DNA from: Halomonas campaniensis
GTDB lineage: Bacteria > Pseudomonadota > Gammaproteobacteria > Pseudomonadales > Halomonadaceae
Direction: 5' to 3'
Length of the DNA: 64,000 nt
Assembly: GCF_014193375.1 (NCBI RefSeq)
Contig: NZ_JACHZF010000018.1
Span: 1-64,000, forward strand
Part shown: positions 1-31,350 of the stretch, piece after piece
How the letters are laid out: each line of letters begins with the position of its first letter
Numbering within the stretch: position 1 is the first letter of the stretch
Program-made: the position numbers and the translations under genes
Notes under the pieces: model-generated
Database searches by the model: none
What the model was told of the DNA's origin: nothing
The model's input: only the letters and a program-made list of their open reading frames with translations

Positions 1-549
1 GATCAAAAAGCAGCCAATCTCCACCCCCAGAGCCCTTTTATCCCCACCGAGCATGGCATCTGGGGACTTCTGACTGACCCGGTGCAACATCCGGGCTATA
101 CCACCGCCATCGAGCGGGCCGCCGGGTTCGAGGAGCGTCTCGCCGAACTCTGCCCCGGCGTCGAGCTGATGGAGACCCAGCCGGGCAACTGGAACCGCGA
201 GCGGGCCCAGCGCGTCATGGAGGACTTCCTCACCAAGTACGACCGCATCGATGGCGTCTACTCCGGTGACGACAACATGGGGGTCGGCGCCCTGAATGCC
301 GCCAAGGGCGCCGGCCGGGCCGACGAGATCATCTTCATCGGCGCCACCAACTTCGCCGTGGGCTATGACGCCATCGCCCGCGGGGAGTATTACGGCTCCA
401 TCTACCAGTCTCCCGTGGACGATGCCGAGGCGGCCCTGCAGACCGCACTGGATGTGCTGGCCGGCGAGGAAGTCCCCAAGCTCAACTTCTTCGAGACCCC
501 GAAGATCACCGCCGAGAACCTGGAAGAGTTCGACCGTCCGGTCTTCTGA
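1..549 (+). CDS. Sugar-type ABC transporter periplasmic binding protein, C-terminal part
   Basis: The 3' part of a periplasmic binding protein of the ribose/xylose type (Peripla_BP_4 fold), cut by the window edge. The frame is open back to base 1, so no start is visible; the GTG at 82 lies inside the fold and is not a believable start. From about base 88 the protein reads HPGYTTAIERAAGFEERL, the usual 'R..GF' helix, followed by GVYSGDDNMGVGAL and a ligand-lobe segment ending at FDRPVF. It should bind the substrate for the permeases and ATPase that follow. The ligand cannot be read from the sequence; the catabolic genes downstream suggest an aromatic, cyclitol or N-containing compound rather than a plain sugar. 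The first 80 or so bases use more AT-rich codons than the rest. Confidence 0.85.
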   Translation, partial: DQKAANLHPQSPFIPTEHGIWGLLTDPVQHPGYTTAIERAAGFEERLAELCPGVELMETQPGNWNRERAQRVMEDFLTKYDRIDGVYSGDDNMGVGALNAAKGAGRADEIIFIGATNFAVGYDAIARGEYYGSIYQSPVDDAEAALQTALDVLAGEEVPKLNFFETPKITAENLEEFDRPVF

Positions 550-564
550 CGTCACGGTCAACTG

Positions 565-602
565 CCCGGGGCAGGCGTCGCACGAGCGATGCCTGCCCCG
601 GG
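565..602 (+). other. Intercistronic hairpin after the binding-protein gene
   Basis: CCCGGGGCAGGC at 565-576 pairs perfectly with GCCTGCCCCGGG at 591-602 across a 14-base loop. There is no T-run. Hairpins like this after binding-protein genes are known to protect the upstream mRNA or attenuate read-through, giving more binding protein than membrane subunits; that role is inferred here. Confidence 0.6.
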
Positions 603-665
603 TGACAGGACTGGCCGGAGCGCAGTCATTCCTTACGCACGGTCCTACCTCAACAGGTGATTCTC

Positions 666-1676
666 ATGTCTTCTGCAGAACAAACCAAAACACGACTCCT
701 GGCGGGAAATGTCAGCAAGGCGGGGGTGATGAGCTTCCTCTCCGCCCAGGGTATCCTGATCTTCTTCCTGCTGGGCATGGTCGTCTTCTCATTCTTCTCC
801 GAGCAGTTTCTCTCCCAATCGAACATCATGACGGTGGTCCGGCAGGCCTCGATCATCGGCATCATCGCCGTCGGCGTCACGGTCGTGATCATCGGCGGTA
901 ACCTGGACCTTTCCGTGGGTTCGATGCTGTCGTTCGCCACCGTCCTGGTGGTGGATCTCCACGACAAGATCGGCCCGACCAACGCGATCCTGATGATGTT
1001 CGCCCTGACCCTGATGCTCGGCGCCGTGAATGGCATCCTGATCGGCTTCATGCGGCTGAACTCCCTGATCGTCACCCTGGCCATGCTCTCCATCATCCAG
1101 GGCCTGGTACTGATCTACAGCGGTGGCCAGAACGTGGATATCGCCAATCAGGATGGCACCTGGTTCGCCTTCTTCGGTCGCGGCTATGTGCTGGGGATCG
1201 CGGTGCCGGTGCTGCTGTTCGGACTGCTGGCCATCCTGATGCAGATCGTCATGTCCCGCACCGGCTACGGGCGGCGCATCTTCGCCGTCGGCGGCAACCC
1301 CATGGCGGCGGTCTACTCGGGCATTCGCAAGAACTGGTGCGTCTTCAGCACCTACCTGATCTCGGCCTTCTGCGTGGCCTGCGCCGCCCTGGTGCTCGGC
1401 TCGCGGGTCATGGGCTCCCAGAACAACGTGGGCCAGGGCTACGAGCTGCTGGTGCTGGCCGGCATCATCCTGGGGGGCACCAGCCTGCTCGGCGGCGCCG
1501 GCAGCATCTGGAAGACGGTGATCGGCGTGCTGATCCTCGGCTTCATCCAGAACGGCCTGCTGCTCATGGGCTACCCCTACTACACCCAGTGGATCGTGAC
1601 CTGGGTGATCATCATCCTGGCCGTCTGGCTGGATCTCGCCAACAAGCGCAAGCGCCTGTTGACGACCCACTCGTGA
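666..1676 (+). CDS. ABC transporter permease, RbsC/XylH type (first of two)
   Basis: Inner-membrane subunit of a carbohydrate-uptake-2 type ABC importer (BPD_transp_2 family), 336 residues, with about eight to ten hydrophobic segments. It carries the family signature GGNLDLSVGSML after the second or third membrane span, the GGNPMAAVYSGI loop and the C-terminal LGGTSLLGGAGSIW loop that contacts the ATPase. I chose ATG 666 over the GTG at 657 because the protein then begins with a normal short cytoplasmic tail (MSSAEQTKTRLL). It probably pairs with the permease at 1693 as a heterodimer, an arrangement that differs from the single RbsC homodimer. Confidence 0.9.
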   Translation: MSSAEQTKTRLLAGNVSKAGVMSFLSAQGILIFFLLGMVVFSFFSEQFLSQSNIMTVVRQASIIGIIAVGVTVVIIGGNLDLSVGSMLSFATVLVVDLHDKIGPTNAILMMFALTLMLGAVNGILIGFMRLNSLIVTLAMLSIIQGLVLIYSGGQNVDIANQDGTWFAFFGRGYVLGIAVPVLLFGLLAILMQIVMSRTGYGRRIFAVGGNPMAAVYSGIRKNWCVFSTYLISAFCVACAALVLGSRVMGSQNNVGQGYELLVLAGIILGGTSLLGGAGSIWKTVIGVLILGFIQNGLLLMGYPYYTQWIVTWVIIILAVWLDLANKRKRLLTTHS

Positions 1677-1692
1677 CGCGGAGGCATGACGC

Positions 1693-2652
1693 ATGATGTC
1701 AATCAAAGGTTTCTTCCGTGGCAGGGCGGCGATCCAGCCGATCTGGATCTTCGTCATCGCCATCTTCATCTTCTTCAGCTTCATGTCGGAGTACTTCCTG
1801 TCGCTGGGCAACATCACCAATATCCTGGTCCAGACCTCGACCATCGGCCTGATCGCCCTGGGCATGACCTACGTGATGATCAACGGCAACATCGATCTCT
1901 CGGTGGGGGCAATACTCGGGCTTGCCGCCTCGCTGGCGGTGGGTCTCCAGGATTATGGCCTGACCATCGCCATCATCGCGGCACTGGCCTCCGGCATGCT
2001 GCTCGGGGCGATCAACGGCCTGGTGGTGTGGAAGACCGGGGTCAACGCCTTCATCGTCACCCTGGGCGCCATGCTGGGCATCCGCGGGCTGATCTTCCTC
2101 TACACCGGCGAGCAGTCCTTCTACTCGATGAACTTCGCCTTCTCGGACTTCGGCGCCAGCAGCATCGGGCCGTTTCCGGTGCTGGCGATCATCTTCCTGC
2201 TCTGCACCCTGGTGATGCACCTGGTGCTGACCCGCACCGGCCACGGGCGCAATACCTTCGCGGTGGGCGGCAACCCGGAGGCCTCCATCGATGCCGGCAT
2301 CCGTCTCGGCCGCCACATGATGATCAACTTCATCATCGTCGGCTTCTTCGCGGCCCTGGCCGGGGTGCTGCTGGCCAGCCAGATGGGGGCGGCCACGCCC
2401 AACCTCGGGCGTGACTACGAGCTGTGGACCATCACCGCGGTGGTGCTCGGCGGCACCAAGCTCACCGGCGGCTACGGCAGCATCGTCGGCACCCTGGGCG
2501 GCGTGCTGGCCATCGGTATCCTGCGCAACGGCATGAACCTGATGCAGGTGCCGGCCTTCTACGTGCTGGTCGTGCTCGGGGTGATCCTGATCTCGGTGCT
2601 GATCATCGACAAGAAGCTCAATGTGCCCTCGACCAAGGAGGTGCGGATATGA
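1693..2652 (+). CDS. ABC transporter permease, RbsC/XylH type (second of two)
   Basis: Second inner-membrane subunit of the same importer, 319 residues, with the signatures NGNIDLSVGAILG, GGNPEASIDAGI and LGGTKLTGGYGSIVG seen in RbsC-like permeases. A clear GGAGG at 1680-1684 lies 8 bases before the ATG. Its TGA overlaps the ATG of the ATPase by four bases (2649-2652), so the two are probably translationally coupled. It shares the family fold with the preceding permease but the two are clearly different paralogues. Confidence 0.9.
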   Translation: MMSIKGFFRGRAAIQPIWIFVIAIFIFFSFMSEYFLSLGNITNILVQTSTIGLIALGMTYVMINGNIDLSVGAILGLAASLAVGLQDYGLTIAIIAALASGMLLGAINGLVVWKTGVNAFIVTLGAMLGIRGLIFLYTGEQSFYSMNFAFSDFGASSIGPFPVLAIIFLLCTLVMHLVLTRTGHGRNTFAVGGNPEASIDAGIRLGRHMMINFIIVGFFAALAGVLLASQMGAATPNLGRDYELWTITAVVLGGTKLTGGYGSIVGTLGGVLAIGILRNGMNLMQVPAFYVLVVLGVILISVLIIDKKLNVPSTKEVRI

Positions 2653-4208
2653 CTCCCGTCCACGCCAGGACTGGCCAGCGCCAGCCGATCGACGCCGACC
2701 CGGTGCTCAAGCTCGAAGGCATCACCAAGCGCTTTCCCGGGGTGGTGGCCCTCAACAAGGTCGACTTCGACGTTCGCCCCGGGGAGGTCCATGCCCTGCT
2801 CGGCGAGAACGGCGCCGGCAAGTCCACCCTGATGAAGGTGCTGGCCGGCAAGCACCAGGCCAACGAGGGGCGGATCATCCTCGGCGGCGAGGAGATGGCC
2901 TTCGAGAACCCCAAGCATGCCAAGCGGGCCGGGGTGGTGCTGATCCACCAGGAGCAGTCGCTGGTGCCGGAGATGACCGTGGCCGAGAACATCTTCCTCG
3001 GCAGCCTGCCGAAGAAGTGGGGCAACCGTGTCGACTGGCGCAAGCTGCGCGAGGACACCAATGCCATCCTCGAGACCCTCAAGTGCAGCTTCCAGCACGA
3101 CGACCTGGTGGGGTCGCTGTCGATCGCCAAGAAGCAGATGGTCGAGATCGGCCGGGCGCTGGTCTTCACCCCCCGGGTGGTGGTGTTCGACGAGCCGACC
3201 GCCTCGCTGACCGACCACGAGAAGCCGGTACTCTATGACGTGATCCACTCGCTTTGCGAGCAGGGCGTGGGGATCGTCTACATCTCGCACCGCATGGACG
3301 AGATCTTCCACCTCTCCCATCGCATCTCGGTGCTGCGTGACGGCGAATACACCGGCACGGTGAATACCTGCGAGACCCATGAGGACGAGGTCACGCGGAT
3401 GATGATCGGCCGCAGCCTGGAGCTCGACCACGCCAGCAAGCCCACCGATTTCGGCGAGAACATGCTCGAACTGCGCAACCTCACGGTGAAGCGGATCTTC
3501 GAGGATGTCAGCTTCAACGTCCGCAAGGGCGAGATCGTCGGCATGTACGGGCTGGTGGGGGCGGGGCGTTCCGAGGTGGCCGAGACCATCTTCGGGCTGC
3601 GCACGCCCGTGGCGGGCGAGGTGGTGCTGGATGGCGAGGTGGTGAACTTCCGCAGCACCCACGATGCGGTGGCCGCGGGCATCGCCCTGGTGCCCGAGGA
3701 TCGCAAGGACCAGGGGCTGATCCTGGGCATGAACTGCCGGGACAACATGACCCTGGCGAGCCTCTCCAGCGTCTCCTCCGGGGGGTTCATGAAGGGCTCG
3801 GCCGAGCGCAGCGTCTACGACAAGTACCACCAGGCGATGAAGATCAAGACGCCCAGCTGGCGCCAGAAGGTCGGCAACCTCAGCGGCGGCAACCAGCAGA
3901 AGATCGTCATCGGCAAGTGGCTGCATACCCATCCCAAGCTGCTGATCCTCGACGAGCCGACCCGCGGCATCGATGTGGGCTCCAAGGCCGAGATTCACGC
4001 CCTGGTCAAGGACCTCGCCAAGTCCGGCTACGCGGTGCTGGTGATCTCCTCGGAGATGCCGGAGGTGCTCGGCCTGAGCAACCGCATCATCGCCATGTAC
4101 GACGGCCGGGTCACCGCCGAGTTCGACGGCGACAGCGTCAGCGAGGACGCGCTGGTGCAGGCGATTACCGGAATGGGCACGTCAGCCCCGGCGGCGGCGA
4201 CCGCCTAG
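2649..4208 (+). CDS. ABC transporter double ATP-binding protein, RbsA/XylG type
   Basis: Cytoplasmic ATPase with two fused nucleotide-binding domains, 519 residues, the normal size for RbsA-like proteins. Domain 1 has Walker A GENGAGKST (52-60), Q-loop Q101, signature LSIAKKQ (157-163), Walker B VVVFDEP (177-183) and YISHR. Domain 2 has a degenerate Walker A, GLVGAGRS (301-308), with Arg where the Lys should be, yet an intact LSGGNQQ (411-417) and LILDEP (432-437). One degenerate site is typical of this family. The ATG overlaps the preceding stop (ATGA). Following genes are catabolic, so the importer and a degradation route are one operon. Confidence 0.93.
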   Translation: MTPVHARTGQRQPIDADPVLKLEGITKRFPGVVALNKVDFDVRPGEVHALLGENGAGKSTLMKVLAGKHQANEGRIILGGEEMAFENPKHAKRAGVVLIHQEQSLVPEMTVAENIFLGSLPKKWGNRVDWRKLREDTNAILETLKCSFQHDDLVGSLSIAKKQMVEIGRALVFTPRVVVFDEPTASLTDHEKPVLYDVIHSLCEQGVGIVYISHRMDEIFHLSHRISVLRDGEYTGTVNTCETHEDEVTRMMIGRSLELDHASKPTDFGENMLELRNLTVKRIFEDVSFNVRKGEIVGMYGLVGAGRSEVAETIFGLRTPVAGEVVLDGEVVNFRSTHDAVAAGIALVPEDRKDQGLILGMNCRDNMTLASLSSVSSGGFMKGSAERSVYDKYHQAMKIKTPSWRQKVGNLSGGNQQKIVIGKWLHTHPKLLILDEPTRGIDVGSKAEIHALVKDLAKSGYAVLVISSEMPEVLGLSNRIIAMYDGRVTAEFDGDSVSEDALVQAITGMGTSAPAAATA

Positions 4209-4274
4209 GCGGATTCGCCGCCGCGGCGCCCGCTGGGGCGCCCCCATGCACCTTCAACGTCTGAGGAAAGACCC

Positions 4275-5354
4275 ATGCAACCCTTTGTCTATCATGGCCT
4301 GCCATCCCGGGTGGTATTCGGCCAGGGGACCCTGTCGCGCCTCGCCGAGGAAATCGAGCAGCTCGGCTGCCGCCGGGCCCTGGTGCTGGCCACTCCCCAG
4401 CAGCAGGAACAGGCCCGCGCGGTGCTGGAGCAGCTGGGCGAGCGCGGGGCCGGGCTGTTCACCGAGGCCGCCATGCACACGCCGGTCGAGGTGACCGAGC
4501 GCGCCATGCGGGTGGTCGAGGAGCTGGCGGTGGACTGCACCGTGGCCATCGGCGGCGGTTCGACCATCGGCCTGGGCAAGGCCATCGCGCTGCGCACCTG
4601 GCTCCCCCAGGTGGCCATCCCCACCACCTATGCCGGCTCCGAGATGACGCCGATCCTCGGCGAGACCCGCGACGGCATCAAGACCACCCAGCGCACCCTG
4701 GAGGTGCTGCCCGAGACGGTGATCTACGACGTCGACCTGACCCTCTCGCTGCCCGCCGGGATGTCCGGCACCAGCGGCATCAATGCCATCGCCCATGCGG
4801 TGGAGGCGCTCTATGCCCGCGACCGCAACCCGGTGATCTCGCTGATGGCCGAGGAGGGCATCGCCGCGCTGGCCCGCAGTCTGCCGGTGATCGCCGGCGA
4901 CCCGGGCAATGCCGAGGCGCGCGCCGATGCCCTGTATGGCGCCTGGCTGTGCGGTACCTGCCTGGGGTCGGTGGGCATGTCGCTGCACCACAAGCTCTGC
5001 CACACCCTGGGCGGCTCCTTCGACCTGCCCCATGCCGAGACCCATACCATCGTGCTGCCCCATGCGGTGGCCTACAACGCCCCGGCGGCCCCCGAGGCGA
5101 TGTCGCGCATCGCCCGGGCCCTGGGCTGCGAGGATCCCGCCGCCGGCCTCTTCGACCTGGCCCGTGCGGTGGGTGCGCCCACGGCACTGGAGCAGATCGG
5201 CCTCAAGCCGAGTGATGTCGAGCGCGCCACCGAGATCGCCACCCGCAACCCCTACTGGAATCCCCGCGAGGTCGAGGCCCAGGGCATCCATCGCCTGCTG
5301 AGCCATGCCCTGGTCGGCCAGCGACCGGCGAGCGAGGAGGGAGTCCAAACATGA
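4275..5354 (+). CDS. Maleylacetate reductase
   Basis: Iron-type alcohol dehydrogenase family enzyme of 359 residues that reduces maleylacetate to 3-oxoadipate with NAD(P)H, the last step of the hydroxyquinol and chlorocatechol routes. Visible marks are the nucleotide motif GGGS (93-96), PTTYAGSE (116-123) and LHHKLCHTLGG (237-247) followed by DLPHAETH, the block that distinguishes maleylacetate reductases from other members. Context agrees: a hydroxyquinol dioxygenase lies three genes downstream. The product, beta-ketoadipate, would be finished by PcaIJ and PcaF at 28.5-31.4 kb. Its TGA overlaps the next ATG by four bases. Confidence 0.9.
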   Translation: MQPFVYHGLPSRVVFGQGTLSRLAEEIEQLGCRRALVLATPQQQEQARAVLEQLGERGAGLFTEAAMHTPVEVTERAMRVVEELAVDCTVAIGGGSTIGLGKAIALRTWLPQVAIPTTYAGSEMTPILGETRDGIKTTQRTLEVLPETVIYDVDLTLSLPAGMSGTSGINAIAHAVEALYARDRNPVISLMAEEGIAALARSLPVIAGDPGNAEARADALYGAWLCGTCLGSVGMSLHHKLCHTLGGSFDLPHAETHTIVLPHAVAYNAPAAPEAMSRIARALGCEDPAAGLFDLARAVGAPTALEQIGLKPSDVERATEIATRNPYWNPREVEAQGIHRLLSHALVGQRPASEEGVQT

Positions 5355-6715
5355 AGACGCTATTTACGAATGCCACCGTGATCACCATGGACCCCGAGCT
5401 CGGCGACCTGGCCGACGGCCAGGTGCTGGTGGAAGGCGACCGGATCCTGGCCGTGGGCCATGACCTGCCGGCCGAGGGGGCCGAGGTCATCGACTGCCGC
5501 GGCGGCATCCTGATCCCCGGGCTGGTCAACGCCCACATGCATACCTGGCAGACCGCCCTGCGCGGGGTGGCCGCCAACTGGACGCTGCTCGAGTACTTCG
5601 GCCATGTCCACCGCGGCCTGGCGACGCTCTTCACCCCCGACGATATCCAGATCGCCACCCGCATGGGGGCGCTCAACCAGCTCAACTGCGGCACCACCAC
5701 CCTGGGGGACTGGTGCCACAACAACCCCACCCCCGAGCACACCGATGCGGCGGTGCGCGGGCTCAAGGCGTCCGGCATCCGGGCGCTGTTCTTCCACGGC
5801 TCGCCCAAGCCGGATCCCAAGCCGGGGCAGCCCCACTTCAGCGAGATCCCCCATCCGCGCAGCGAGGTCGAGCGGCTGCTCGAGGGCGAACTGGCCGACC
5901 CCGAGGGGCGCGTGACCCTGGGGCTGGCCATCCTCGGGCCGCACTACTCCACCCTCGAGGTCAGCCTGCAGGACTTCGAGCTGGCCAAGGAGTTCGGCCT
6001 GGTGGCCTCCATGCACCAGGGCGGCGGCGAGGCCGTCAGTCCCGGCGGCTGGGACGTGATCGAGGAGAAGGGGCTCTTGGGGCCGGACATCAACATCGTC
6101 CACGGCCAGAGCCTCAGCGACGCTCAGCTGGCGCGCTTCTGCGCGCAGGGGGTGACCTTCTCCGTCGCGCCCGAGAACGAGATGACCCAGGGGCACGGCT
6201 TCCCGATCACCGGCCACGTTCGCCGGCATGGCGGCGTGGTCTCCCTGGGGGTGGACCTGGAATCGGTGATCTCCGGTGACATGTTCACCGTGGCCCGCAT
6301 GGCGCTCGGCATGCAGCGCTCGCTGGACAACGATGCCTCACGGCGCGAGCGGGGCGGCATTCCCGAGACCTCGACCATCCGCACTCGCGAGGCGCTTGGG
6401 TGGATCACCCTCGACGGTGCCCGCGCCCTGGGCCTGGAGGCGCGCATCGGCAGCCTGACGCCGGGCAAGCAGGCCGACCTGGTGCTGCTGGACAGCGGCC
6501 TGCTGAACATGCAGCCGGTCAGCGACCCGGTCTCCACCGTGGTCATGCAGGCGAGCCTGGCCAATGTCGACAGCGTCATGGTGGCGGGAGAGTTCCACAA
6601 GCGACACGGTAGGCTGCTGGCGGACGTCGAGGAGGGGGTCCGCCACCTGGCAGCCTCCGGTCACCGCATCTACGCCGAGCTTCAGTCACGGCAACAAGGG
6701 GGGACAACACAATGA
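5351..6715 (+). CDS. Amidohydrolase, cytosine deaminase/TRZ-ATZ-like
   Basis: Metal-dependent hydrolase of the amidohydrolase superfamily, 454 residues. It shows the N-terminal beta-sandwich, the metal motif HMHTW (H62, H64), later histidines in SMHQGGG and NIVHGQSLSD, the aspartate region SLGVDLES and the C-terminal LTPGKQADLVLLD block. The nearest families hydrolyse C-N bonds: deamination of nucleobase-like rings or dechlorination of triazines. It is four-base coupled to genes on both sides, so it very likely acts in the same route. The substrate is unknown; its presence suggests the imported compound contains an amino, amide or ring-nitrogen group. Confidence 0.8.
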   Translation: MKTLFTNATVITMDPELGDLADGQVLVEGDRILAVGHDLPAEGAEVIDCRGGILIPGLVNAHMHTWQTALRGVAANWTLLEYFGHVHRGLATLFTPDDIQIATRMGALNQLNCGTTTLGDWCHNNPTPEHTDAAVRGLKASGIRALFFHGSPKPDPKPGQPHFSEIPHPRSEVERLLEGELADPEGRVTLGLAILGPHYSTLEVSLQDFELAKEFGLVASMHQGGGEAVSPGGWDVIEEKGLLGPDINIVHGQSLSDAQLARFCAQGVTFSVAPENEMTQGHGFPITGHVRRHGGVVSLGVDLESVISGDMFTVARMALGMQRSLDNDASRRERGGIPETSTIRTREALGWITLDGARALGLEARIGSLTPGKQADLVLLDSGLLNMQPVSDPVSTVVMQASLANVDSVMVAGEFHKRHGRLLADVEEGVRHLAASGHRIYAELQSRQQGGTTQ

Positions 6716-7629
6716 CAGCCACCAACAAGGTCGCCTGGATCGGCCTCGGCAAGCTGGGCCTGCCCATGGCCGCGCGGATCGCTGCGGCGGGGACCCCCGT
6801 CCAGGGGTTCGACCTCAGCCCCGAGCGGATGGCCCTGGCCGAGCAGGCCGGCATCGCCCCTCACCCGTCCCTGGCCGCCGCCGTCGAGGGGTGCCGCCTG
6901 GTGTTCGTCTCGATCCCCGATGATCGGGCGCTGCTGGGCCTGCACCTGGGAGCGGATGGCCTGATCGAGGCGATGGCCCCGGGCAGCGTGCTGATCGAGA
7001 CCAGCACCGTCAGCATCGAGGCCTCCGCCCGGGTGGCCGAGGCCGCCGAGGCGCGGGGCATCGCCTATCTGCGCAGCCCGGTGTCGGGGAATCCGGTCGC
7101 CGCCGAGTCCGGCACCCTGTCGGCCATGGTCTCCGGCCCGCGCGACGCCCTGGAGGCGGCCGTGCCGGTGATGGCCGCCTTCACCAAGGCCCAGTACTGG
7201 CTCGGAGACGCGGAGCAGGCCCGCTACGCCAAGCTGGCGATCAACCTGATGATCGCGGTGAGCGCCGGCATGATGGGCGAGGCCCTGGCCATGGCCCGCA
7301 AGGGCAACATCGGCTGGGAGGCGATGCTGGACCTGATGGCCGACAGCGCCGTCGGTTCGCCGATGGTCAAGTACAAGACCCAGCCGCTGAAGGATCGCGA
7401 CTTCACCTCCACCTTCTCGGCCGCCCAGATGGCCAAGGACCTGGACCTGATCCTCGGCTGTGCCCACGCCGACGGTGTCGCCGTGCCCCTGGCCGCCCAG
7501 ATGCGCGAGGCCTACAGCTCGCTGATCGGCACGGGCCACGGCGAGGACGACTACATCGCCACGATCCACCACACCGAGCGCCTTTCCGGGCTGCCGGCCA
7601 TCGAGAGCGCCTCCGGCGCCAAGGGATGA
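6712..7629 (+). CDS. NAD(P)-dependent beta-hydroxyacid dehydrogenase, 3-hydroxyisobutyrate dehydrogenase family
   Basis: Soluble oxidoreductase of 305 residues. It has a Rossmann GLGKLG (11-16), the substrate-binding block SPVSGNPVAAESGTL (S125 in the serine position of the family) and the catalytic lysine region YAKLAINLM (K174, N178). Members oxidise 3-hydroxyisobutyrate, tartronate semialdehyde, 4-hydroxybutyrate and similar 2- or 3-hydroxy acids; the exact substrate cannot be assigned. The ATG overlaps the stop of the amidohydrolase. Together with the RutE-like reductase downstream it suggests a semialdehyde or hydroxyacid side product. Confidence 0.82.
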   Translation: MTATNKVAWIGLGKLGLPMAARIAAAGTPVQGFDLSPERMALAEQAGIAPHPSLAAAVEGCRLVFVSIPDDRALLGLHLGADGLIEAMAPGSVLIETSTVSIEASARVAEAAEARGIAYLRSPVSGNPVAAESGTLSAMVSGPRDALEAAVPVMAAFTKAQYWLGDAEQARYAKLAINLMIAVSAGMMGEALAMARKGNIGWEAMLDLMADSAVGSPMVKYKTQPLKDRDFTSTFSAAQMAKDLDLILGCAHADGVAVPLAAQMREAYSSLIGTGHGEDDYIATIHHTERLSGLPAIESASGAKG

Positions 7630-7633
7630 CGAG

Positions 7634-8497
7634 ATGCGAAACCTCAATGCCGTGAACATCACCGATGCCGTGATCGAGCAGTTCGCCGGCTGCGGTGACG
7701 AGCGCCTGAAGCAGGTGCTAAACAGCCTGGTCACCCACCTGCATGGCTTCATCCGCGAGGTGGAGCCCACCGAGCAGGAGTGGACCCAGGCCATCGACTT
7801 CCTGACCCGCACCGGCCAGATGTGCGACGACAAGCGCCAGGAGTTCATCCTGCTCTCCGACACCCTGGGCGTCACCATGCTGGTCGACGCCATCAATCAC
7901 CAGACGTCGGACCCCATGGTCTCCGAGAGCACGGTGCTGGGCCCCTTCTATGTGGCCGACCCGCCCCAGGCCGCCCGGGGCGAGTCGATCGACTGGAACG
8001 TCGAGGGGGAGCCCTTCTTCGTGGAGGGGCGGGTGCATGACGAGCGCGGCGAGCCCCTGGCCAATGTGGTCATCGATGTCTGGCAATCGGACAGCGAAGG
8101 GTTCTACGACGTCCAGAAGGAGCTCGAGGGCGCCTCGCTGCGGGCCCGGTTCACCACCGACGACCAGGGGCGCTATGCCTTCTGGACGGTGACCCCCTCG
8201 CCCTACCCGATCCCCACCGACGGCCCGGTCGGCAAGATGCTGGAAGTCACCGGTCGCCACCCTTATCGCCCCGCCCACGTGCACTTCATGCTCATGGCCG
8301 AGGGCTTTGAAACCCTGGTGACCCAGGTCTTCGCCGAGGACGACCCCTATCTCGACTCCGACGCCGTCTTCGGCGTCAAGGATTCCCTGGTCAGGGAGTA
8401 CCAGCTGCTGCCGCCGGGAAAGGCACCGGATGGGCGGTCGATGGAAGTCCCCTTCCGCCATCTGACCTACGACTTCGGCCTCAAGGCGAGCCGCTAG
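7634..8497 (+). CDS. Hydroxyquinol 1,2-dioxygenase (intradiol)
   Basis: Non-haem Fe(III) dioxygenase of 287 residues that would cleave 1,2,4-trihydroxybenzene to maleylacetate. The N-terminal helical linker domain (to about 105) typical of catechol and hydroxyquinol dioxygenases is followed by the catalytic domain with the four expected iron ligands: Y158 (EGFYD), Y191 (SPYPIP), H215 and H217 (RPAHVHF). A catechol 1,2-dioxygenase is the main alternative, but maleylacetate reductase in the same operon favours hydroxyquinol. There is no hydroxylase here to make hydroxyquinol, so that step is either elsewhere or unrecognised. Confidence 0.85.
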   Translation: MRNLNAVNITDAVIEQFAGCGDERLKQVLNSLVTHLHGFIREVEPTEQEWTQAIDFLTRTGQMCDDKRQEFILLSDTLGVTMLVDAINHQTSDPMVSESTVLGPFYVADPPQAARGESIDWNVEGEPFFVEGRVHDERGEPLANVVIDVWQSDSEGFYDVQKELEGASLRARFTTDDQGRYAFWTVTPSPYPIPTDGPVGKMLEVTGRHPYRPAHVHFMLMAEGFETLVTQVFAEDDPYLDSDAVFGVKDSLVREYQLLPPGKAPDGRSMEVPFRHLTYDFGLKASR

Positions 8498-8552
8498 TCC
8501 CACTGCAAGACGACACCCTGAAGCCAATACCATCCAGCAAGAGGAAAGCGAC

Positions 8553-9143
8553 ATGACTGTTATCGACAACTCCGCGGTCGAGACCCTGTTCACCAAGGCG
8601 CGTACCCACAACGTCTGGCAGGATCGTGACGTCAGCGACGAGACCCTGCACGAGCTCTACCACCTGATGCACTTCGGCCCGACCTCCATGAACTGCCAGC
8701 CGACCCGCATCCTCTTTCTCAGGAGCCAGGAAGCCAAGGAGCGCCTCAAGCCCGCGCTGCTGCCGGGCAACCAGGAGAAGACCATGAAGGCCCCGGTGGT
8801 CGCGGTGCTGGGCTTCGACACCGAGTTCCACGAGCACCTGCCGCGCATGTTCTCCCACAACAAGGACGCCAAGTCGCTGTTCGAGGGCAAGCCGGACTTC
8901 ATCCATACCACCGCCTTCCGCAACAGCTCCATCCAGGGCGGCTACTTCATCCTGGCGGCTCGGGCGCTGGGCCTGGATGCCGGGCCGATGTCCGGCTTCA
9001 ACAATGCCGCCGTCGACGAGGCCTTCTTCCCGGACGGCAAGGTGAAGAGCAACTTCCTCTGCAACCTGGGCTACGGGGATGCCGAGGCGCTCTTCCCGCG
9101 CCAGGAGCGCTTCGCCTTCGAGGAGATCTGCGAGGTCCTGTAA
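8553..9143 (+). CDS. RutE/HadB-like nitroreductase (malonic semialdehyde reductase family)
   Basis: FMN-dependent nitroreductase-fold protein of 196 residues, the same length as Escherichia coli RutE, which reduces malonic semialdehyde to 3-hydroxypropionate in pyrimidine degradation. Family marks are the FGPTSMNCQPTRI segment near the N terminus, RNSSIQGGYFILAARALGLDAGPMSGF and NFLCNLGYGD. AGAGGAAAG just before the ATG is a good ribosome binding site. It is the last gene of the operon, followed by a strong terminator. A role in clearing a toxic aldehyde, or in reducing a quinone or nitro-aromatic, is possible. Confidence 0.8.
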   Translation: MTVIDNSAVETLFTKARTHNVWQDRDVSDETLHELYHLMHFGPTSMNCQPTRILFLRSQEAKERLKPALLPGNQEKTMKAPVVAVLGFDTEFHEHLPRMFSHNKDAKSLFEGKPDFIHTTAFRNSSIQGGYFILAARALGLDAGPMSGFNNAAVDEAFFPDGKVKSNFLCNLGYGDAEALFPRQERFAFEEICEVL

Positions 9144-9272: not shown

Positions 9273-10010
9273 ATGCTGTACGACTGGCAGTTCATCGTGT
9301 TGATCATCATCGCCGTACTGATCACCGGCATCTCGAAATCCGGCTTCGCCGGCGGTGTCGGGGTAGTGGCGGTGCCGCTGATCTCGCTCAAGGCCAGCCC
9401 GGCCTTCGCCGTGGCCGTGATGCTGCCGCTGCTGATCGTGATGGATGTGTTCAGCCTCAAGGCCTGGTGGCGTCACCGTGTGGGCGCCGTGCTCTGGCTG
9501 ATGTTTCCCCCGGCGGTGCTGGGGGTGACGGTCGGCTACCTGACCTACGGCCGCCTCGACGAGGACCTGCTGAAGGTACTGCTGGGGGTGTTCTCGATCC
9601 TGTTCGGCCTGTGGGGGCTGCTCAAGCCCTTCCGCGGCCGGGTGCTGCCCGCCTGGACGGGCGCGCTGAGCGGCGGTATCGCCGGCTTCACCAGCTTCAT
9701 CGCCCACGCCGGGGGGCCGCCGCTCAACTTCTACCTGCTGCAGTGCCGGCTCTCCAAGGAGCAGTTCCTGGGAACCGCCGTGGTCTTCCTGGCCGCCACC
9801 AACCTGGTCAAGCTGGTGCCCTACGGCATGCTCGGCCTGCTGAACGTCGAGAACCTCACCATCGCGCTGCTGCTGATCCCGGTGGCCTGGCTGGGGGTGC
9901 GCCTGGGGCTGGTCATCCAGCGGCGGCTGAGCGGTGAGCTGTTCTTCCGGATCATCCTGGGCCTGCTGATCCTGCTGGGCATTCGGCTGATCGTCGACGG
10001 CTGGGGATAG
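9273..10010 (+). CDS. TauE/SafE family sulfite/organoanion exporter
   Basis: Integral membrane protein of 245 residues with about eight hydrophobic segments arranged as two similar halves, characteristic of the TauE/SafE family. Each half has the GxxxGxxxxGG-like pattern (ITGISKSGFAGGVGVV and ALSGGIAGFTSFIAHAGGPP). Members export sulfite, sulfoacetate or other small organic anions. It lies after a terminator, so it is probably a separate unit. A ligand cannot be inferred; it may export an organic acid from the neighbouring pathway. Confidence 0.8.
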   Translation: MLYDWQFIVLIIIAVLITGISKSGFAGGVGVVAVPLISLKASPAFAVAVMLPLLIVMDVFSLKAWWRHRVGAVLWLMFPPAVLGVTVGYLTYGRLDEDLLKVLLGVFSILFGLWGLLKPFRGRVLPAWTGALSGGIAGFTSFIAHAGGPPLNFYLLQCRLSKEQFLGTAVVFLAATNLVKLVPYGMLGLLNVENLTIALLLIPVAWLGVRLGLVIQRRLSGELFFRIILGLLILLGIRLIVDGWG

Positions 10011-10091: not shown

Positions 10092-11864
10092 ATGAGCGAC
10101 CTCCCCGACGAGAGCCATCCCGAGGGGCCCTACGACAGGCTGTCCCAGACGCCGAGGTCGAAGCTCTCCCATACGGAGCTCTCGCGCTTCATCGACTTCA
10201 TCGAGAAGTTCGAGGAGGAGACCGAGCACTCGCTCTCCCTGAGCCACGGCTACCGGGAGATGCGCATGATGCTCCACCTCATGCGCAACCACCTGGCCGG
10301 CCGGCTGACGACGCCCACCTCGCTGGCGGATGCGTCCGGGCTCTCCTACGGTACCGCCAAGCGCGGGATCGAGAGCATCATCCAGCGCGGGCTGATCCTG
10401 TCACGCCCCAGGACGAAATCGGGCAAGACCGTCTCGCTGCACCCCTCGCCCATGATGATCGAGGAGTGGGAGACCTATGCGCACCACATCAAGGGCCTGC
10501 TGGGGCCCCTGTTCGGGGTGGATCCGGCGTCGGACACCGGGCGCCGGATCTTCCTCGATGCGGCCGAGACGGGGCGCGTGATCTCCCCGCCAGCGGTGCT
10601 CTCGGCACGGCTCGAACTGAAGGGCGGGCTGCGCGGGCTCATCCACGCCGATCCCACCTTCATGGCGATGCACAACCTCAAGCAGCAGCTGGAGTCGATC
10701 TTCGGTCTCGAGATCCACAACTCCGCCAGGTCGATCGACGACCTGCTCGAGGCGATCCTCACCAATGCCGGCCGGGCGAAGTCCCGCTATGACCTGGTGG
10801 CCTGCGACCTGCCCTGGTTCGGCGAACTGGCCTCGAAGGGCATCCTGATGCCCCTCGATCGCTTCATCCGGCGCGATGCCCATGACCTCTCCGACTTTCA
10901 CCCCGTTGCGGTGCAGAGCACGCGATACGCCGGTGAGCAATACGGCATTCCCCTGCAGACCACCCCGGAGCTGCTCTGCTACCGGAAGGATATCCTCGAG
11001 GAGGCGCAGCTCGAGCCCCCCACGACCACCGAGGAGCTGATCAAGGTAGCCAGGCGGCTGCATGACCCCGCCCGGGGGCGTTACGGCATTGCCTGGAATG
11101 CCGCGCGAGGCACACCGCTGGGCCATACCTTCAGCTTCCTGATGGCCAAGTTCGGTCAGCCGATCATCAACCTTCGCCGCTGCGAGGGAGGCTATGACTT
11201 CCAGCAGGCGTCCGGGGAGGAGCTGCGGCCGATGTTCCAGTCGGATGCCGCCTACCGGGCCTGCGAGTACATGCTGGATATCCTCAAGTATTCGCCCCCC
11301 AGCATTCTCCACATGGCATGGTACGAGCGAGCCCAATCCTATGCCTCCGGCGAGTCCTGCATGGCCTACTGCTACACGCTGCTGGCGCCGCTCATCGAGT
11401 TCGATCGCCAGTCGCCGGCCTGGGGCAACACGGGCTACCTGCCGCACCCCATCGGCAACCATGGCCGTGCGATCACCCCGATCGGGGGCTATGCCCTGGC
11501 CATTCCGTCCAACCTCGCCGAGGAGCGGATCGAGAGTGTCTGGACGGCCCTGCGTCATCTCACCTCGGCCAACATGTCCAAGCTCTATATCCTGAACGGC
11601 AGCCTGGTGACCCCGCGCTTCAGCGTCAGCCAGGACCCTGAGGTCTCGGCGCTGTCGCCGCTGATCGGGATCGTGGATGACATGGCGAGGAAGGACATCC
11701 TGCAGGCCTGGCCGCGGCCTCCCGTTCCGGGTATCACGGACCTGATCAGCATCGCCGGACACGAGATCTTCGAGGTGCTGGACGGGCGGCGCTCCATCAA
11801 GAAGGCCCTGTCCTTGGCGCAGGACAGGGCCGATCGGGTGATGCGAGACAGGGGCTGCTACTGA
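10092..11864 (+). CDS. Fusion of N-terminal winged-helix domain and family 1 solute-binding-protein domain, likely ligand-sensing regulator
   Basis: 590-residue protein without a signal peptide. Residues about 60-115 (REMRMMLHLMRNHL to SGLSYGTAKRGIESIIQRGLI) look like a winged helix-turn-helix, with a recognition helix around SYGTAKRGIESII. From about 165 to the end it follows the extracellular solute-binding protein family 1 pattern, including LLCYRKDILEEAQLEPPTTTEELIKVARRL. No lipobox or Sec signal is present, so the binding domain should be cytoplasmic and serve as a sensor. I chose ATG 10092 because GAGGCGACC precedes it; an in-frame upstream start at 10056 adds an unrelated tail. Convergent with the SDR gene. 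The regulatory role is inferred. Confidence 0.7.
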   Translation: MSDLPDESHPEGPYDRLSQTPRSKLSHTELSRFIDFIEKFEEETEHSLSLSHGYREMRMMLHLMRNHLAGRLTTPTSLADASGLSYGTAKRGIESIIQRGLILSRPRTKSGKTVSLHPSPMMIEEWETYAHHIKGLLGPLFGVDPASDTGRRIFLDAAETGRVISPPAVLSARLELKGGLRGLIHADPTFMAMHNLKQQLESIFGLEIHNSARSIDDLLEAILTNAGRAKSRYDLVACDLPWFGELASKGILMPLDRFIRRDAHDLSDFHPVAVQSTRYAGEQYGIPLQTTPELLCYRKDILEEAQLEPPTTTEELIKVARRLHDPARGRYGIAWNAARGTPLGHTFSFLMAKFGQPIINLRRCEGGYDFQQASGEELRPMFQSDAAYRACEYMLDILKYSPPSILHMAWYERAQSYASGESCMAYCYTLLAPLIEFDRQSPAWGNTGYLPHPIGNHGRAITPIGGYALAIPSNLAEERIESVWTALRHLTSANMSKLYILNGSLVTPRFSVSQDPEVSALSPLIGIVDDMARKDILQAWPRPPVPGITDLISIAGHEIFEVLDGRRSIKKALSLAQDRADRVMRDRGCY

Positions 11865-11889: not shown

Positions 11890-12696
11890 TCACTGCAGGA
11901 TCATGCCGCCGTCGATCATCAGCAGCTGGCCGGTCATGTAGTCCGATTCGGGGCTGGCCAGGAAGGAGGCCGTGCCGACCACATCTTCCGGGTAGGAGTA
12001 GCGCTTCATCAGGATCATCTTCTCGGCGAGCTCGTCCATGGACTGGCCCTGCTTGTCGAACTTGCCGATGCTGACCAGGTCCTTGTCGAGCTGCTCCCAC
12101 AGCTCGGTGCGCACCACACCGGGGCCGTAGCCGTTGACGGTGATGTTGTGGTCGACCAGCGCCTTGGCACCGCCGTTGATCATGGCCAGCACCGCGTGCT
12201 TGCTGCAGGAGTAGGGCACCACGTCATCGAAGGCCTGGCGCGACAGGATGGAGCCCACATTGAGGATCTTGTAGGGCCCGTTCTCCTTGCCCTGCGCGAT
12301 CATCTGCTTGGCGGCTTCCTGCATGCCGAGCAGGCAGCCCAGCGCATTGACGTCCATGATCTGGTGCCAGTTCTCCTCGGTGATGTCGAGGAACATCAGC
12401 GGCTTGTTGATGCCGGCATTGTTGACCATGACATTGAGGCTGCCGAAGGCGTCGACGGTGGCCTGCACGGCGGCCTTCACCTGGTCTCTCTCGGTCACGT
12501 TGAGCTTGACCGCGATGGCCTTGCCGCCGTCCCTTGCGTTGATGCGCTGGACCACTTCCTCGCAGCCCTCGATGTTCAGGTCGGCCACGCAGACATTGGC
12601 CCCCTGGGCGGCATAATGCTCGGCGACGGCCGCCCCCATGCCGCGTGCGGCGCCGGTAATCAGGCAGTTCTTCCCTGCCAAACGTGTCTTGTCCAT
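11890..12696 (-). CDS. SDR family NAD(P)-dependent oxidoreductase
   Basis: Classical short-chain dehydrogenase of 268 residues. Cofactor motif TGAARGMG (14-21), NNAG (92-95) and catalytic S149, Y162, K166 (YSCSK) are all present. An acidic end to beta-2 (VADLN) suggests NAD(H). The start at 12696 is preceded by GAGGTGA; a longer version from 12732 adds a Pro-rich tail that is unlikely. Families close to it include sorbitol, acetoin and 3-oxoacyl reductases; the substrate is unknown. It ends 25 bases from the convergent HTH-SBP gene, which may control it. Confidence 0.82.
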   Translation of the reverse strand: MDKTRLAGKNCLITGAARGMGAAVAEHYAAQGANVCVADLNIEGCEEVVQRINARDGGKAIAVKLNVTERDQVKAAVQATVDAFGSLNVMVNNAGINKPLMFLDITEENWHQIMDVNALGCLLGMQEAAKQMIAQGKENGPYKILNVGSILSRQAFDDVVPYSCSKHAVLAMINGGAKALVDHNITVNGYGPGVVRTELWEQLDKDLVSIGKFDKQGQSMDELAEKMILMKRYSYPEDVVGTASFLASPESDYMTGQLLMIDGGMILQ

Positions 12697-12743
12697 CGGG
12701 TCACCTCTTGGAGTTGTTGAAGGCAAAGGCATGGCGACATGCC

Positions 12744-26988: not shown

Positions 26989-28332
26989 ATGCCTGCCGCC
27001 CTGATCCAGCACCCCTTCATGAGCCAGTCGGCCCTGGCCGAATGCAACGCCGAGGCGATGGTCCAGGCCATGCTGGCCTTCGAGCTGGCCCTGGCCGAGG
27101 CTCAGGAGGCCCGCGGTGCCGTCCCCGAGCAGATGAGTGCCCAGATGCGCCATCTCCTCGAGGGCCACCGCTTCGATATCGATGCCATCGCCGCCGGCAT
27201 CGCCAGCGGCGGCAACGCGGCGATTCCCTTCGTCAAGCAGGCCAGGGCGGCCCTGCCCGCCGAACTCAAGCGCTATTTCCACCAGGGGGCCACCAGCCAG
27301 GACGTGGTCGACTCCGCGCTGATGCTGCTGCTCAAGCCGCGCCTGGCGGCCCTGGATGCGCTGCTGCGGCGCTGCCGGGCCGCCGCCATGGCGCTGATGG
27401 AGGCCCATGACGAGACCGTGATGGTGGGGCGCACCCTGATGCAGCAGGCGCTGCCGATCACCTTTGGGGTCAAGGTGGCGCACTGGGCCATCGGCCTGGA
27501 GCAGGCGCGCCGCCGGCTGGCCGGGGTCGAGCTGCCGGTGCAGTTCGGCGGCGCCGTGGGAGTGCACTCTGGTCTGGAAGAGCCGGGCCGGGATGACCGG
27601 GGGCTTGATTACATGGACGCCCTGGCCGAGCGGCTGGGGCTGAGTGCCCCGGTGCTGCCCTGGCACACCGACCGCCAGCCGGTGCATGCCCTGGGCACGG
27701 CGCTGGACGCGGTAGCGGGTGCCGCCGAGAAGCTGGCCCTGGACGTGGCACTGCTGACCCAGACCGAGGTGGGCGAGGTAGCCGAGCCCTCGGCCCCCGG
27801 CATGGGCGAGTCCTCCTCCATGCCCCACAAGCGCAACCCGGTGCGCTGCGCGCTGATCCGCGGCGCGGCCCGCCAGGTGCATGGCCATGCCACGGTGCTG
27901 CTCAACGCCGCCGCCCAGCCCCTGGAGCGGGGCCTGGGGGAGTGGCATGCGGAGTGGGCGCCGCTGGTCGACAGTGCCCTGCTGCTGGAGGGGGCCCTGG
28001 AGCAGGCCGCGGTGCTGCTGGAGGGGCTGGAGGTGCACCCCGAGGCGATGCAACGCAATCTGGCCGCTACCGGCGGCGGGATCATGGCCGAGCCGGTGGC
28101 GAAGCTGCTGGCGCCGACCCTGGGGCCGGACGCCGCCAAGCGCATCAGCGCCGAGGCCGCCGAGACGGCGCGCCTGCAGGGAGTGGCCTACGCCGCGGCG
28201 CTCAATGTCCATCCCGAGGTGCAGGGCCGGCTGGACCCGGAGGAGGTGGCCCGTGTCACGGATCCGTCATTATACCTTGGTAGCAGTCGGGTTCAGGTGG
28301 CGCGCGCCGCCGAGTGGCTGATGACCAGTTAA
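26989..28332 (+). CDS. pcaB: 3-carboxy-cis,cis-muconate cycloisomerase
   Basis: 447-residue member of the fumarase/aspartase superfamily that lactonises 3-carboxymuconate to 4-carboxymuconolactone, the step after protocatechuate ring opening. It shows the first conserved block FHQGATSQDVVDS (GATSQD 100-105) and the superfamily signature GESSSMPHKRNP (273-284). Length fits bacterial PcaB. GGAG is eight bases before the ATG. It is transcribed alone and ends at a strong hairpin; the other pca genes follow as separate units. Confidence 0.93.
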   Translation: MPAALIQHPFMSQSALAECNAEAMVQAMLAFELALAEAQEARGAVPEQMSAQMRHLLEGHRFDIDAIAAGIASGGNAAIPFVKQARAALPAELKRYFHQGATSQDVVDSALMLLLKPRLAALDALLRRCRAAAMALMEAHDETVMVGRTLMQQALPITFGVKVAHWAIGLEQARRRLAGVELPVQFGGAVGVHSGLEEPGRDDRGLDYMDALAERLGLSAPVLPWHTDRQPVHALGTALDAVAGAAEKLALDVALLTQTEVGEVAEPSAPGMGESSSMPHKRNPVRCALIRGAARQVHGHATVLLNAAAQPLERGLGEWHAEWAPLVDSALLLEGALEQAAVLLEGLEVHPEAMQRNLAATGGGIMAEPVAKLLAPTLGPDAAKRISAEAAETARLQGVAYAAALNVHPEVQGRLDPEEVARVTDPSLYLGSSRVQVARAAEWLMTS

Positions 28333-28371
28333 GCGACTGTCCGGGAAGACATTGTGTCGTACGAGAGGGGA

Positions 28372-28402
28372 AGGCCTGGCCTTCCCCTCTCGGCGTTCAG
28401 AG
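28372..28402. terminator. Hairpin after pcaB
   Basis: A perfect 13-bp stem starting CGAGAGGGGAAGG (28372-28384) with its complement at 28390-28402 and a 5-base loop lies 40 bases after the pcaB stop. No T-run. Confidence 0.55.
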
Positions 28403-28457
28403 CGTCGACAATTTGACGCTGGCCGACGGCGGGAGTAATTTGTTCGCATCACAAAAC

Positions 28458-28478
28458 AAAGTTCGTTATTCGAACTTT
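28458..28478. promoter_or_regulatory. PcaR operator upstream of pcaI
   Basis: AAAGTTCG-TTATT-CGAACTTT is an 8-bp perfect inverted repeat with the same 5-base spacer as the pcaB site, ending 30 bases before the pcaI start. A second GTTCG half-site is at 28442-28446, suggesting tandem binding. Confidence 0.7.
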
Positions 28479-28507
28479 TGCGAGAGTCACCGCCAGGAGG
28501 AGATCCC

Positions 28508-29338: not shown

Positions 29339-30111
29339 TGAGCCTCGACTACACTTCCTCGGAGATGATGACCGTCACCGCGGCTCGCGCCCTGGAGAAC
29401 GGCACCACCTGCTTCGTCGGCATCGGCCTGCCCTCCGAGGCGGCCAACCTGGCGCGCCTGACCCACGCCCCCGACGTGGTGCTGATCTACGAGTCCGGCA
29501 CCCTGCAGACCAAACCCGACGTGCTGCCGCTCTCCATCGGAGACGGCGAGCTGGCCGAGACGGCGCTCACCACCGTGGCGGTGCCGGAGATGTTCCGCTA
29601 CTGGCTGCAGGGCGGGAAGATCGACGTGGGCTTCCTGGGCACCGCCCAGATCGACCGCTACTGCAACCTCAACACCACCCTGATCGGCGACTACCGCGAG
29701 CCCAAGGTGCGCCTGCCGGGCGGCGGCGGGGCGCCGGAGATCGCAACGAATGCGGGCGAGGTCTTCATCACCCTGAAGCACTCCAGGCGCGCCTTCGTCG
29801 ACCGGGTCGACTTCGTCACCACCCTGGGCTTCGGCCGTGACGGCAAGGGCCGCGACGGCGTGCCCAATATCGGCAAGGGCCCGACCCGGGTGATCACCGA
29901 TCTGTGCGTGATGAAGCCGGACCCCGAGACCAAGGAGCTCGTCGTGGTGTCGCTCCATCCGGGCGTGACCCGCGAGGAGGTGATCGAGGCCACCGGCTGG
30001 GAGATCCGCTTCGCCGAGCGGCTCGAGACCACACCTGTGCCCTCGGCCCATGAGCTCGAGATCCTGCGGGACCTGAAGGACCGCACCGCCCGCGCCCATG
30101 CCGGGGCGTGA
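29338..30111 (+). CDS. pcaJ: 3-oxoadipate CoA-transferase subunit B
   Basis: 257-residue beta subunit of the same CoA-transferase. The likely catalytic glutamate is E52 in LIYESGTLQTKP, the position that forms the glutamyl-CoA intermediate in this family. GGGGAPEIATNAGEVF and the C-terminal LHPGVTREEVIEATGWEIRFAERLE segment also match. It serves both the protocatechuate and the hydroxyquinol branches. Confidence 0.92.
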   Translation: MSLDYTSSEMMTVTAARALENGTTCFVGIGLPSEAANLARLTHAPDVVLIYESGTLQTKPDVLPLSIGDGELAETALTTVAVPEMFRYWLQGGKIDVGFLGTAQIDRYCNLNTTLIGDYREPKVRLPGGGGAPEIATNAGEVFITLKHSRRAFVDRVDFVTTLGFGRDGKGRDGVPNIGKGPTRVITDLCVMKPDPETKELVVVSLHPGVTREEVIEATGWEIRFAERLETTPVPSAHELEILRDLKDRTARAHAGA

Positions 30112-30147
30112 TGCCGCCACTCGCAGCGATTTCCAGGAGATAAGGCA

Positions 30148-31350
<1,203 letters not shown>

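Follow-up and report, generated by a model that had tools for sequence, protein, structure and literature searches.

We analysed a 64-kb stretch of Halomonas campaniensis DNA that begins at base 1 of contig C18 (NZ_JACHZF010000018.1; hereafter, the window). It opens with an operon that joins a ribose-type (CUT2) ABC importer to a maleylacetate reductase (MAR), an amidohydrolase-superfamily enzyme (AMH) and a hydroxyquinol 1,2-dioxygenase (HQDO). Hydroxyquinol is usually a monooxygenase product made from phenols, and no ring hydroxylase was found in this operon. With somewhat less than even confidence, we read it as a system for the hydroxylase-free import and conversion of a cyclitol-like alicycle to hydroxyquinol. 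More doubtful is the broader proposal of a widespread oxygenase-free route from cyclitol-like compounds to an aromatic ring, in which AMH, with the HxxE glutamate lost and Glu277 gained, would be the aromatising enzyme, and which would exist in several non-homologous module versions in Rhizobiales and Burkholderiales. No paper describing the operon or its upper route was found in the open-access literature (subscription papers fall outside this coverage).

Operon genes and the lower pathway

Genes were called with a simple open reading frame (ORF) script, and profile scans of the window ORFs recovered the gene families of a first-pass annotation of this DNA in the order it had given. The genes described next are all on the plus strand. 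Because the window begins at base 1 of the contig, the CUT2 substrate-binding protein (1..549; Peripla_BP_4, 1.2e-27) is represented by its C-terminal part only; relatives (e.g., Billgrantia ethanolica, L004) have full-length copies. It is followed by an 18-bp stem-loop at 564..603 (folding of 550-665, z = -5.05; equal stability in 0 of 200 shuffles), and a strong hairpin between the binding-protein and permease genes is usual for such operons. Two permeases (666..1676 and 1693..2652; both BPD_transp_2) and a double ATPase (2649..4208; two ABC_tran stretches) complete the importer. The enzymes are MAR (4275..5354), AMH (5351..6715), a beta-hydroxyacid dehydrogenase of the HIBADH/6PGDH family (hereafter, HIBADH; 6712..7629; NAD_binding_2 and NAD_binding_11), the intradiol enzyme HQDO (7634..8497), and a RutE-like nitroreductase-family flavoprotein (8553..9143). 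All 51 HIBADH homologues compared carry a K-L/I/V-x-x-N-type motif, and 38 of them an SGN/SGS motif.

Four-base start/stop overlaps occur only at the permease 2/ATPase, MAR/AMH, and AMH/HIBADH junctions, HIBADH and HQDO are spaced by 4 bases, and the ATPase and MAR genes are separated by a gap of 66 bases. The translational coupling of importer and enzymes that had been claimed thus holds at the three overlaps and fails between ATPase and MAR. Likewise, the genes assigned to positions 1..9143 are present as described, but the unit runs on to 12732 with genes for a TauE/SafE-like exporter, a proposed regulator, and an SDR dehydrogenase, each conserved in 27 of the 28 Halomonadaceae loci compared below.

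The lower half of the pathway is the clearer one. The matches of HQDO to hydroxyquinol-type dioxygenase structures (PnpC 3n9t, 6.5e-82; 1tmx, 1.6e-80) are much stronger than those to catechol dioxygenases, which reach 4.2e-37 at best. For MAR, solved maleylacetate reductases give E values of about 1e-128 (3hl0, 1.3e-128; 3w5s, 1.8e-127), with 3jzd at 5.6e-131. Both genes of a hydroxyquinol catabolic operon are therefore present, and the structure matches support the earlier view that the operon ends in hydroxyquinol leading to beta-ketoadipate. Judged from the enzyme families, beta-ketoadipate is the well-supported predicted output, and the lower half (HQDO, then MAR) is an ordinary, already known pathway, which leaves the upper half to be explained. 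Genes for the further breakdown of beta-ketoadipate are in the same window, 18–26 kb downstream of the operon, i.e., pca-type genes (26989..35020) and a 3-oxoadipate:acetyl-CoA acetyltransferase (BKACE; 35169..36002; NF053568, 501.7 bits against a cut-off of 350), all on the plus strand. Of 14 operon-bearing genomes searched for BKACE, 10 have a protein above the cut-off, and in Skermanella rosea the gene run itself ends in MAR and a protein above the cut-off of this model.

Conservation and the search for a ring hydroxylase

Loci for comparison came from an AMH scan of a species-genome collection, with the best 80 of 417 relatives retained, and from 11 plasmid loci hand-picked from 33 records; the counts for these 91 loci are biased toward AMH, and some loci are truncated by contig ends. 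The nearest named relatives by AMH among the 417 belong to Billgrantia and Halomonas. HQDO lies within 6 kb of AMH in 55 of the 91 loci (28 Halomonadaceae and 27 others). All 28 Halomonadaceae loci have the importer, MAR, HIBADH, and the RutE-like gene. The 27 other loci contain HIBADH (n = 20), MAR (n = 19), YciI (n = 17), importer permeases with the binding protein (n = 13), a GlcD-like FAD oxidase (n = 11), Dabb (n = 10), the RutE-like enzyme (n = 6), and a GMC oxidase (n = 3); ATPase and SDR matches were left uncounted there, some being generic paralogues. Gene order is kept in Halomonadaceae, Marinobacterium, and Skermanella and is rearranged in Rhizobiales and Burkholderiales. Even on a plasmid of Cupriavidus necator N-1, where AMH is only 41 % identical, MAR, HIBADH, GMC, AMH, and HQDO still form one run. 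Conservation by chance across such distances is not plausible in our judgement, which was made without a formal chance estimate.

Some loci showed other associations of the AMH family. In ten loci lacking the dioxygenase (L048, L051, L052, L055, L059, L065, L066, L070, L072, and L075) the AMH relative adjoins a protein of cluster c12 that we take to be MetE-like. In the Mesorhizobium/Kaistia loci L034, L040, L041, L073, and L079, AMH is paired with a 42–43 % dioxygenase, MAR was not found in the fetched stretches, and the neighbours are presumably malonate-CoA enzymes, OYE, an FAH-family hydrolase, and a Gfo/Idh enzyme; perhaps these loci form another product from the same upper route. In the Skermanella rosea operon a ThuA-domain protein (L104:11267-11995) lies between the ATPase and AMH.

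The loci were searched for hydroxylases with six probes and then with sixteen (13 class A flavin hydroxylases and 3 of class D), a set that diverged or other oxygenases would escape. Both sets detected a hydroxylase in the same 3 of the 55 AMH and HQDO loci, i.e., L038, L050 (on the opposite strand), and L113 (in a separate upstream group). The constant presence of a resorcinol or phenol hydroxylase in orthologous operons, which the first-pass annotation had named as evidence against a new route, was therefore not seen. All 18 PF01494 flavin hydroxylase matches of the H. campaniensis genome lie outside the window (the nearest at C18:66474), and HpaB had no match in this genome, so that the reported absence of a ring hydroxylase from the operon stands. 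Nor was a linked, hydroxyquinol-making ring hydroxylase like those of resorcinol- and trichlorophenol-type operons found within the window; a LigXa-type Rieske oxygenase is encoded at 46606-48099, 37 kb from the operon.

Two Onishia taeanensis genomes (L011 and L012) carry the complete operon. The only full-length PF01494 matches in both are tandem UbiH and UbiH/UbiF/VisC-subfamily ubiquinone hydroxylases, and neither PF02332 nor a P450 was found, in a search that did not extend to luciferase-like, ABM-type, and other oxygenase families. HpaB was not found in G204, the one O. taeanensis genome searched for it. Each genome has two Rieske-type matches, which in G204 are a glycine-betaine monooxygenase (GbcA) and a benzoate 1,2-dioxygenase-like protein (BenA-like), just below the cut-off. 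Acyl-CoA_dh_2 was tried as a screen for class D hydroxylases and gave matches in all three genomes; the top matches in both O. taeanensis genomes adjoin a hydrolase-like gene, which we take to belong to valine breakdown, and these top matches were rejected as hydroxylases.

Hydroxylase-free hydroxyquinol clusters extend beyond the AMH version, because they were also seen among plasmid HQDO loci without AMH. We hand-chose 16 such loci among 60 of 444 records. A hydroxylase is nearby in seven (L140, L145, L146, L148, L149, L150, and L151), and the sixteen probes, several of which came from these loci, were positive in the same number. Four (L137, L141, L144, and L147) are either isolated dioxygenases, of hydroquinone-dioxygenase type, or unclear. 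In the remaining five (L138, L139, L142, L143, and L152) no hydroxylase is present, also by probe, and there are dehydrogenase or dehydratase genes. Paraburkholderia largidicola has a CUT2 importer, a butanediol dehydrogenase, HIBADH (41 %), YciI, HQDO, MAR, and a PRISE-type SDR, and Rhizobium WL3 additionally has a Gfo/Idh/MocA enzyme, Dabb, and a 29 % relative of the proposed regulator. S. meliloti Rm41 encodes a dehydroquinase II, an MR/MLE enzyme, a xylose-isomerase-like barrel, and an FAD_binding_2 flavoprotein; S. americanum a GMC oxidase, MR/MLE, TIM barrels, and a TauE-like gene; and Caballeronia NK8 a TIM barrel, an SDR, and an aldo/keto reductase. The clusters of Paraburkholderia (L142), Rhizobium WL3 (L152/L153), and S. 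meliloti Rm41 (L139) resemble the Halomonas operon in that no hydroxylase was found and dehydrogenases or dehydratases are present; two of them also have YciI and a CUT2-like importer. They differ in having no AMH and in using other oxidoreductases. To our knowledge, these clusters have not been described as a pathway.

The AMH enzyme, the importer, and a proposed upper route

AMH belongs to the PRK08204 subfamily (NF006056, 583.3 bits against a cut-off of 391), for which the NCBIfam name is hypothetical protein. Its AlphaFold2 model (mean pLDDT 90.9) has isocytosine deaminase, AtzA, TrzN, and an uncharacterised amidohydrolase as best Foldseek matches (7ww2, 4v1x, and 3hpa among them). It shares with these TRZ/ATZ amidohydrolases (AtzA, TrzN, and the isocytosine deaminase Vcz) the fold and five metal ligands, H62, H64, H222, and H251 being kept in 47 of 47 aligned sequences and D302 in 46, and differs from them, at about 21–26 % identity, in two motif positions. 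In alignments to 3hpa and 7ww2 the HxxE glutamate, the proton shuttle in deaminases and TrzN, is replaced by Gly (n = 44), Ser, Asp, or Ala (n = 1 each) and is never Glu, and the Asn of the SN motif that follows has become an invariant Glu277. Because the HxxE glutamate is gone in all 47, the sequence argues against ordinary ring deamination by AMH. Among the structural matches is 6sj2, an amidohydrolase-fold protein listed with 3-HAA in Foldseek, which we take to catalyse a dehydrative ring closure, an earlier example of a non-hydrolytic reaction on this fold. An analogy with phloroglucinol cyclohydrolase was dropped; the text of PMC10470551 does not contain the word amidohydrolase.

The importer accords with the earlier assignment to a sugar/polyol (ribose-type) class, as supported by CUT2 family matches. 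The nearest CUT2 proteins to the binding protein are 2ioy, 5hko, 4rs3, and 4rsm, of which we take the last two to be Mycobacterium proteins with polyol ligands. Aligned to 2ioy, the binding protein has Asp replaced by Ser, Asn by Asp, and Asp by Thr at three positions, presumably the ribose contacts, whereas basic residues are kept. All 31 proteins compared from Gammaproteobacteria and Skermanella carry the motifs TNS[KR], GDDNM, and GATNF. Among the matches listed, the binding-protein fragment, the permeases, and the ATPase (best models AraG and RbsA) are all below the cut-offs of named sugar equivalogs. An ordinary-sugar binding protein, which had been named as contrary evidence, is not indicated, given the changes at the three presumed contact positions; the ligand may be something other than an ordinary sugar, perhaps an acidic compound, as these residues weakly suggest. 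CUT2 importers are linked to the enzymes in two different arrangements. The AMH gene of L033 has an overlap with that for the ATPase of a CUT2 importer, in a locus that has neither HQDO nor MAR, which favours action of AMH on the imported compound.

Variovorax RA8 (L145) encodes a 59 % homologue of the RutE-like enzyme (NF003768, 297.8 bits against a cut-off of 152) that is flanked by an HpaB-type hydroxylase on one side and MAR/HQDO on the other, a position that we take to be that of TcpB, a quinone reductase. That operon, presumably of the tcp/had trichlorophenol type, shares HQDO, MAR, and the reductase with the Halomonas operon, but has the hydroxylase and a flavin reductase and lacks a CUT2 importer and AMH. 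A locus that we take to be of the gra/resorcinol type (Rhizobium NZLR1, L140) shares the dioxygenase and MAR with an ABC importer, but has an FAD monooxygenase beside the dioxygenase, a branched-chain-type importer, and no such AMH. Reduction of hydroxyquinone appears to be the simplest and better reading of the RutE-like enzyme. A pyrimidine (Rut) role agrees with its sequence family and was rejected on the context of this homologue; no rut-type neighbours were seen among the operon genes scanned.

The importer class, the ring-cleavage and reductase families, BKACE, and the conserved linkage are evident from the sequence; what the upper steps are, which way and in what order they run, what HIBADH does, and which substrate is imported we infer. 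In the proposed scheme the CUT2 system would import a polar, cyclitol-like compound (alicyclic, possibly acidic), and an alcohol oxidoreductase would make a ring ketone. This enzyme would be an SDR here and a GlcD-like FAD oxidase or GMC enzyme elsewhere, three unrelated types that are distributed by lineage (SDR in 27 of 28 Halomonadaceae loci; GlcD-like in 11 and GMC in 3 of the 27 others). AMH, together with the small alpha/beta-barrel proteins YciI and Dabb that recur outside Halomonadaceae, may then complete the aromatisation, hydrolytic or dehydrative, that leads to hydroxyquinol or hydroxyquinone. The RutE-like flavoprotein would hold the product reduced as hydroxyquinol, HQDO would open the ring, MAR would yield beta-ketoadipate, and PcaIJ/PcaF or BKACE would finish. 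By our own derivation, a cyclohexanepentol (C6H12O5) less 2 H and 2 H2O gives C6H6O3, and oxidation at C1 with loss of the C3 and C5 hydroxyls would leave the 1,2,4 pattern of hydroxyquinol. Deoxyinosose may provide a chemical precedent; none of the open-access papers listed contained deoxy-scyllo-inosose.

Several observations weigh against this scheme. The Halomonas operon contains no proven dehydratase, HIBADH, presumably a redox enzyme, has no firm place, AMH occurs without HQDO within 6 kb in 36 of the 91 loci, and the solved AMH relatives hydrolyse C–N or C–Cl bonds. Distant relatives of AMH (38–46 %; L108, L110, and L114) adjoin a class A hydroxylase in Shinella, Burkholderia anthina, and Rhodococcus, so that oxygenated aromatics may also be among the substrates of the family. 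A hydroxylase is adjacent to AMH on the same strand in L038. The H. campaniensis genome also encodes a phenol 2-monooxygenase on the same contig, about 57 kb from the operon (C18:66381-68270; 913.8 bits against a cut-off of 560), PobA (within C18:66-74 kb), two PRK08132-type monooxygenases on contig C4, and one P450 match, and one of these unlinked hydroxylases could make hydroxyquinol for the operon. The latter findings feed the least unlikely of the alternatives, in which an unlinked phenol or resorcinol hydroxylase produces hydroxyquinol from a phenol, the operon only finishes the pathway, and the importer and AMH serve a side substrate. Such an arrangement would suit the hydroxylases near 7 of the 16 other plasmid dioxygenase loci, the adjacent one in L038, and the presence of HpaB, at whatever distance from the operon, in 9 of 23 genomes searched genome-wide. 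It is harder to reconcile with the two O. taeanensis genomes that keep the operon and in which no such hydroxylase was found, with linkage of a hydroxylase in only 3 of 55 loci, and with the importer, AMH, and lower pathway staying together over wide distances. We consider it unlikely.

Other explanations assign a different reaction to AMH. In 4-sulfocatechol breakdown a substituent is taken off the muconate or lactone after ring opening to give maleylacetate, and AMH could act in this way once HQDO had opened a substituted catechol, with the TauE-like protein exporting sulfite. The shared logic of intradiol enzyme, amidohydrolase, and MAR and the TauE/SafE-like gene in 27 of 28 Halomonadaceae loci fit; a dioxygenase of hydroxyquinol type, an operon without a cycloisomerase, a PF01979-type AMH (sulfomuconolactone hydrolases presumably belong to another branch), and the L033 locus do not, and the idea is improbable. 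Deamination of an imported N-heterocycle or aminophenol to hydroxyquinol is equally improbable. The closest folds (isocytosine deaminase, AtzA, and TrzN), the retained metal ligands, and relatives in Reyranella-type loci with presumed amidases and further amidohydrolases in the vicinity speak for it, but the HxxE glutamate is replaced (Gly in 44 of 47) and Asn has become Glu277, the operon has no other N-ring enzyme, and a trichlorophenol-type cluster explains the RutE-like enzyme. Of the two substrate classes first suggested, the N-heterocycle is thereby weakened, and the cyclitol-like compound gains from the sister operons. Least probable of all is the import of an oxygenated aromatic, e.g., a conjugate of hydroxyquinol or methoxyhydroquinone, from whose quinone form AMH would remove a group by vinylogous ester hydrolysis. 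Here the TrzN/AtzA-like fold, a quinone-reductase-like partner enzyme, and AMH homologues that adjoin a class A flavin hydroxylase in Shinella, Rhodococcus, and a Burkholderia from sorghum root are set against the lack of a glycosidase or esterase in the operon and the varying alcohol oxidases, which would be left without a role; we also know of no CUT2 importers for such phenols. A link to sorgoleone or methoxyquinones, raised by the sorghum-root homologue, was abandoned since nothing usable was found in the literature.

If the cyclitol-like route is correct, a sugar-like compound feeding hydroxyquinol ring cleavage would link carbohydrate and aromatic catabolism, PRK08204 amidohydrolases would gain a function, and a mild biological route to aromatisation would become available. 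The operon offers testable candidates, i.e., the binding protein for a ligand screen and one enzyme to assay.

Other genes of the window

The gene that follows the RutE-like enzyme (9273..10010, plus strand) is presumably a TauE/SafE-like exporter, a family name that a 30 % homologue also bears; a homologue is present in L143. The next frame (10092..11864, plus strand) has a MalE-type solute-binding domain (SBP_bac_1, 5.7e-21, residues 229-504 of a longer frame from 10056) after an N-terminal extension that we read as a helix-turn-helix (HTH), for which there was no Pfam match. We propose that it is a one-component regulator sensing a sugar-like ligand, with the HTH and a cytoplasmic location as predicted features. 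All but one of the 28 Halomonadaceae loci have a relative, as do L025, L026, L104, L073, and L152. The SDR gene (11890..12732, minus strand) encodes an acetoin/iditol-dehydrogenase-like protein (3wye, 6.8e-54; 4e6p, 4.7e-46; TIGR02415, 237.7 bits, below the cut-off of 304.35), and its homologues (53–54 %) lie within the operon in L025, L026, and L104.

Quinate/shikimate-type genes (17166-20436 and 22336-24081) lie between the operon and the pca region, including a 3-dehydroshikimate dehydratase/4-HPPD-like fusion (QuiC model, below cut-off), a KstD-like flavoprotein, and further genes that we take to encode shikimate dehydrogenase and dehydroquinase II. The pca region itself comprises a pcaB-like gene (320.6 bits against 355.75, below cut-off), a CoA-transferase pair, a thiolase, a pcaDC-like gene (384.5 against 390, also below), a LysR gene, pcaH (above cut-off), and pcaG; names other than pcaB-like, pcaDC-like, and pcaH are our presumed assignments. 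Farther downstream, a stretch of lower GC3 (44832-59952) between transposase genes (Mutator-type and DDE-type) contains the LigXa-type Rieske oxygenase, a ferredoxin-reductase-type protein, a Gfo/Idh enzyme, a quinolinate phosphoribosyltransferase-like gene, and a TRAP transporter, and looks like a mobile catabolic island.

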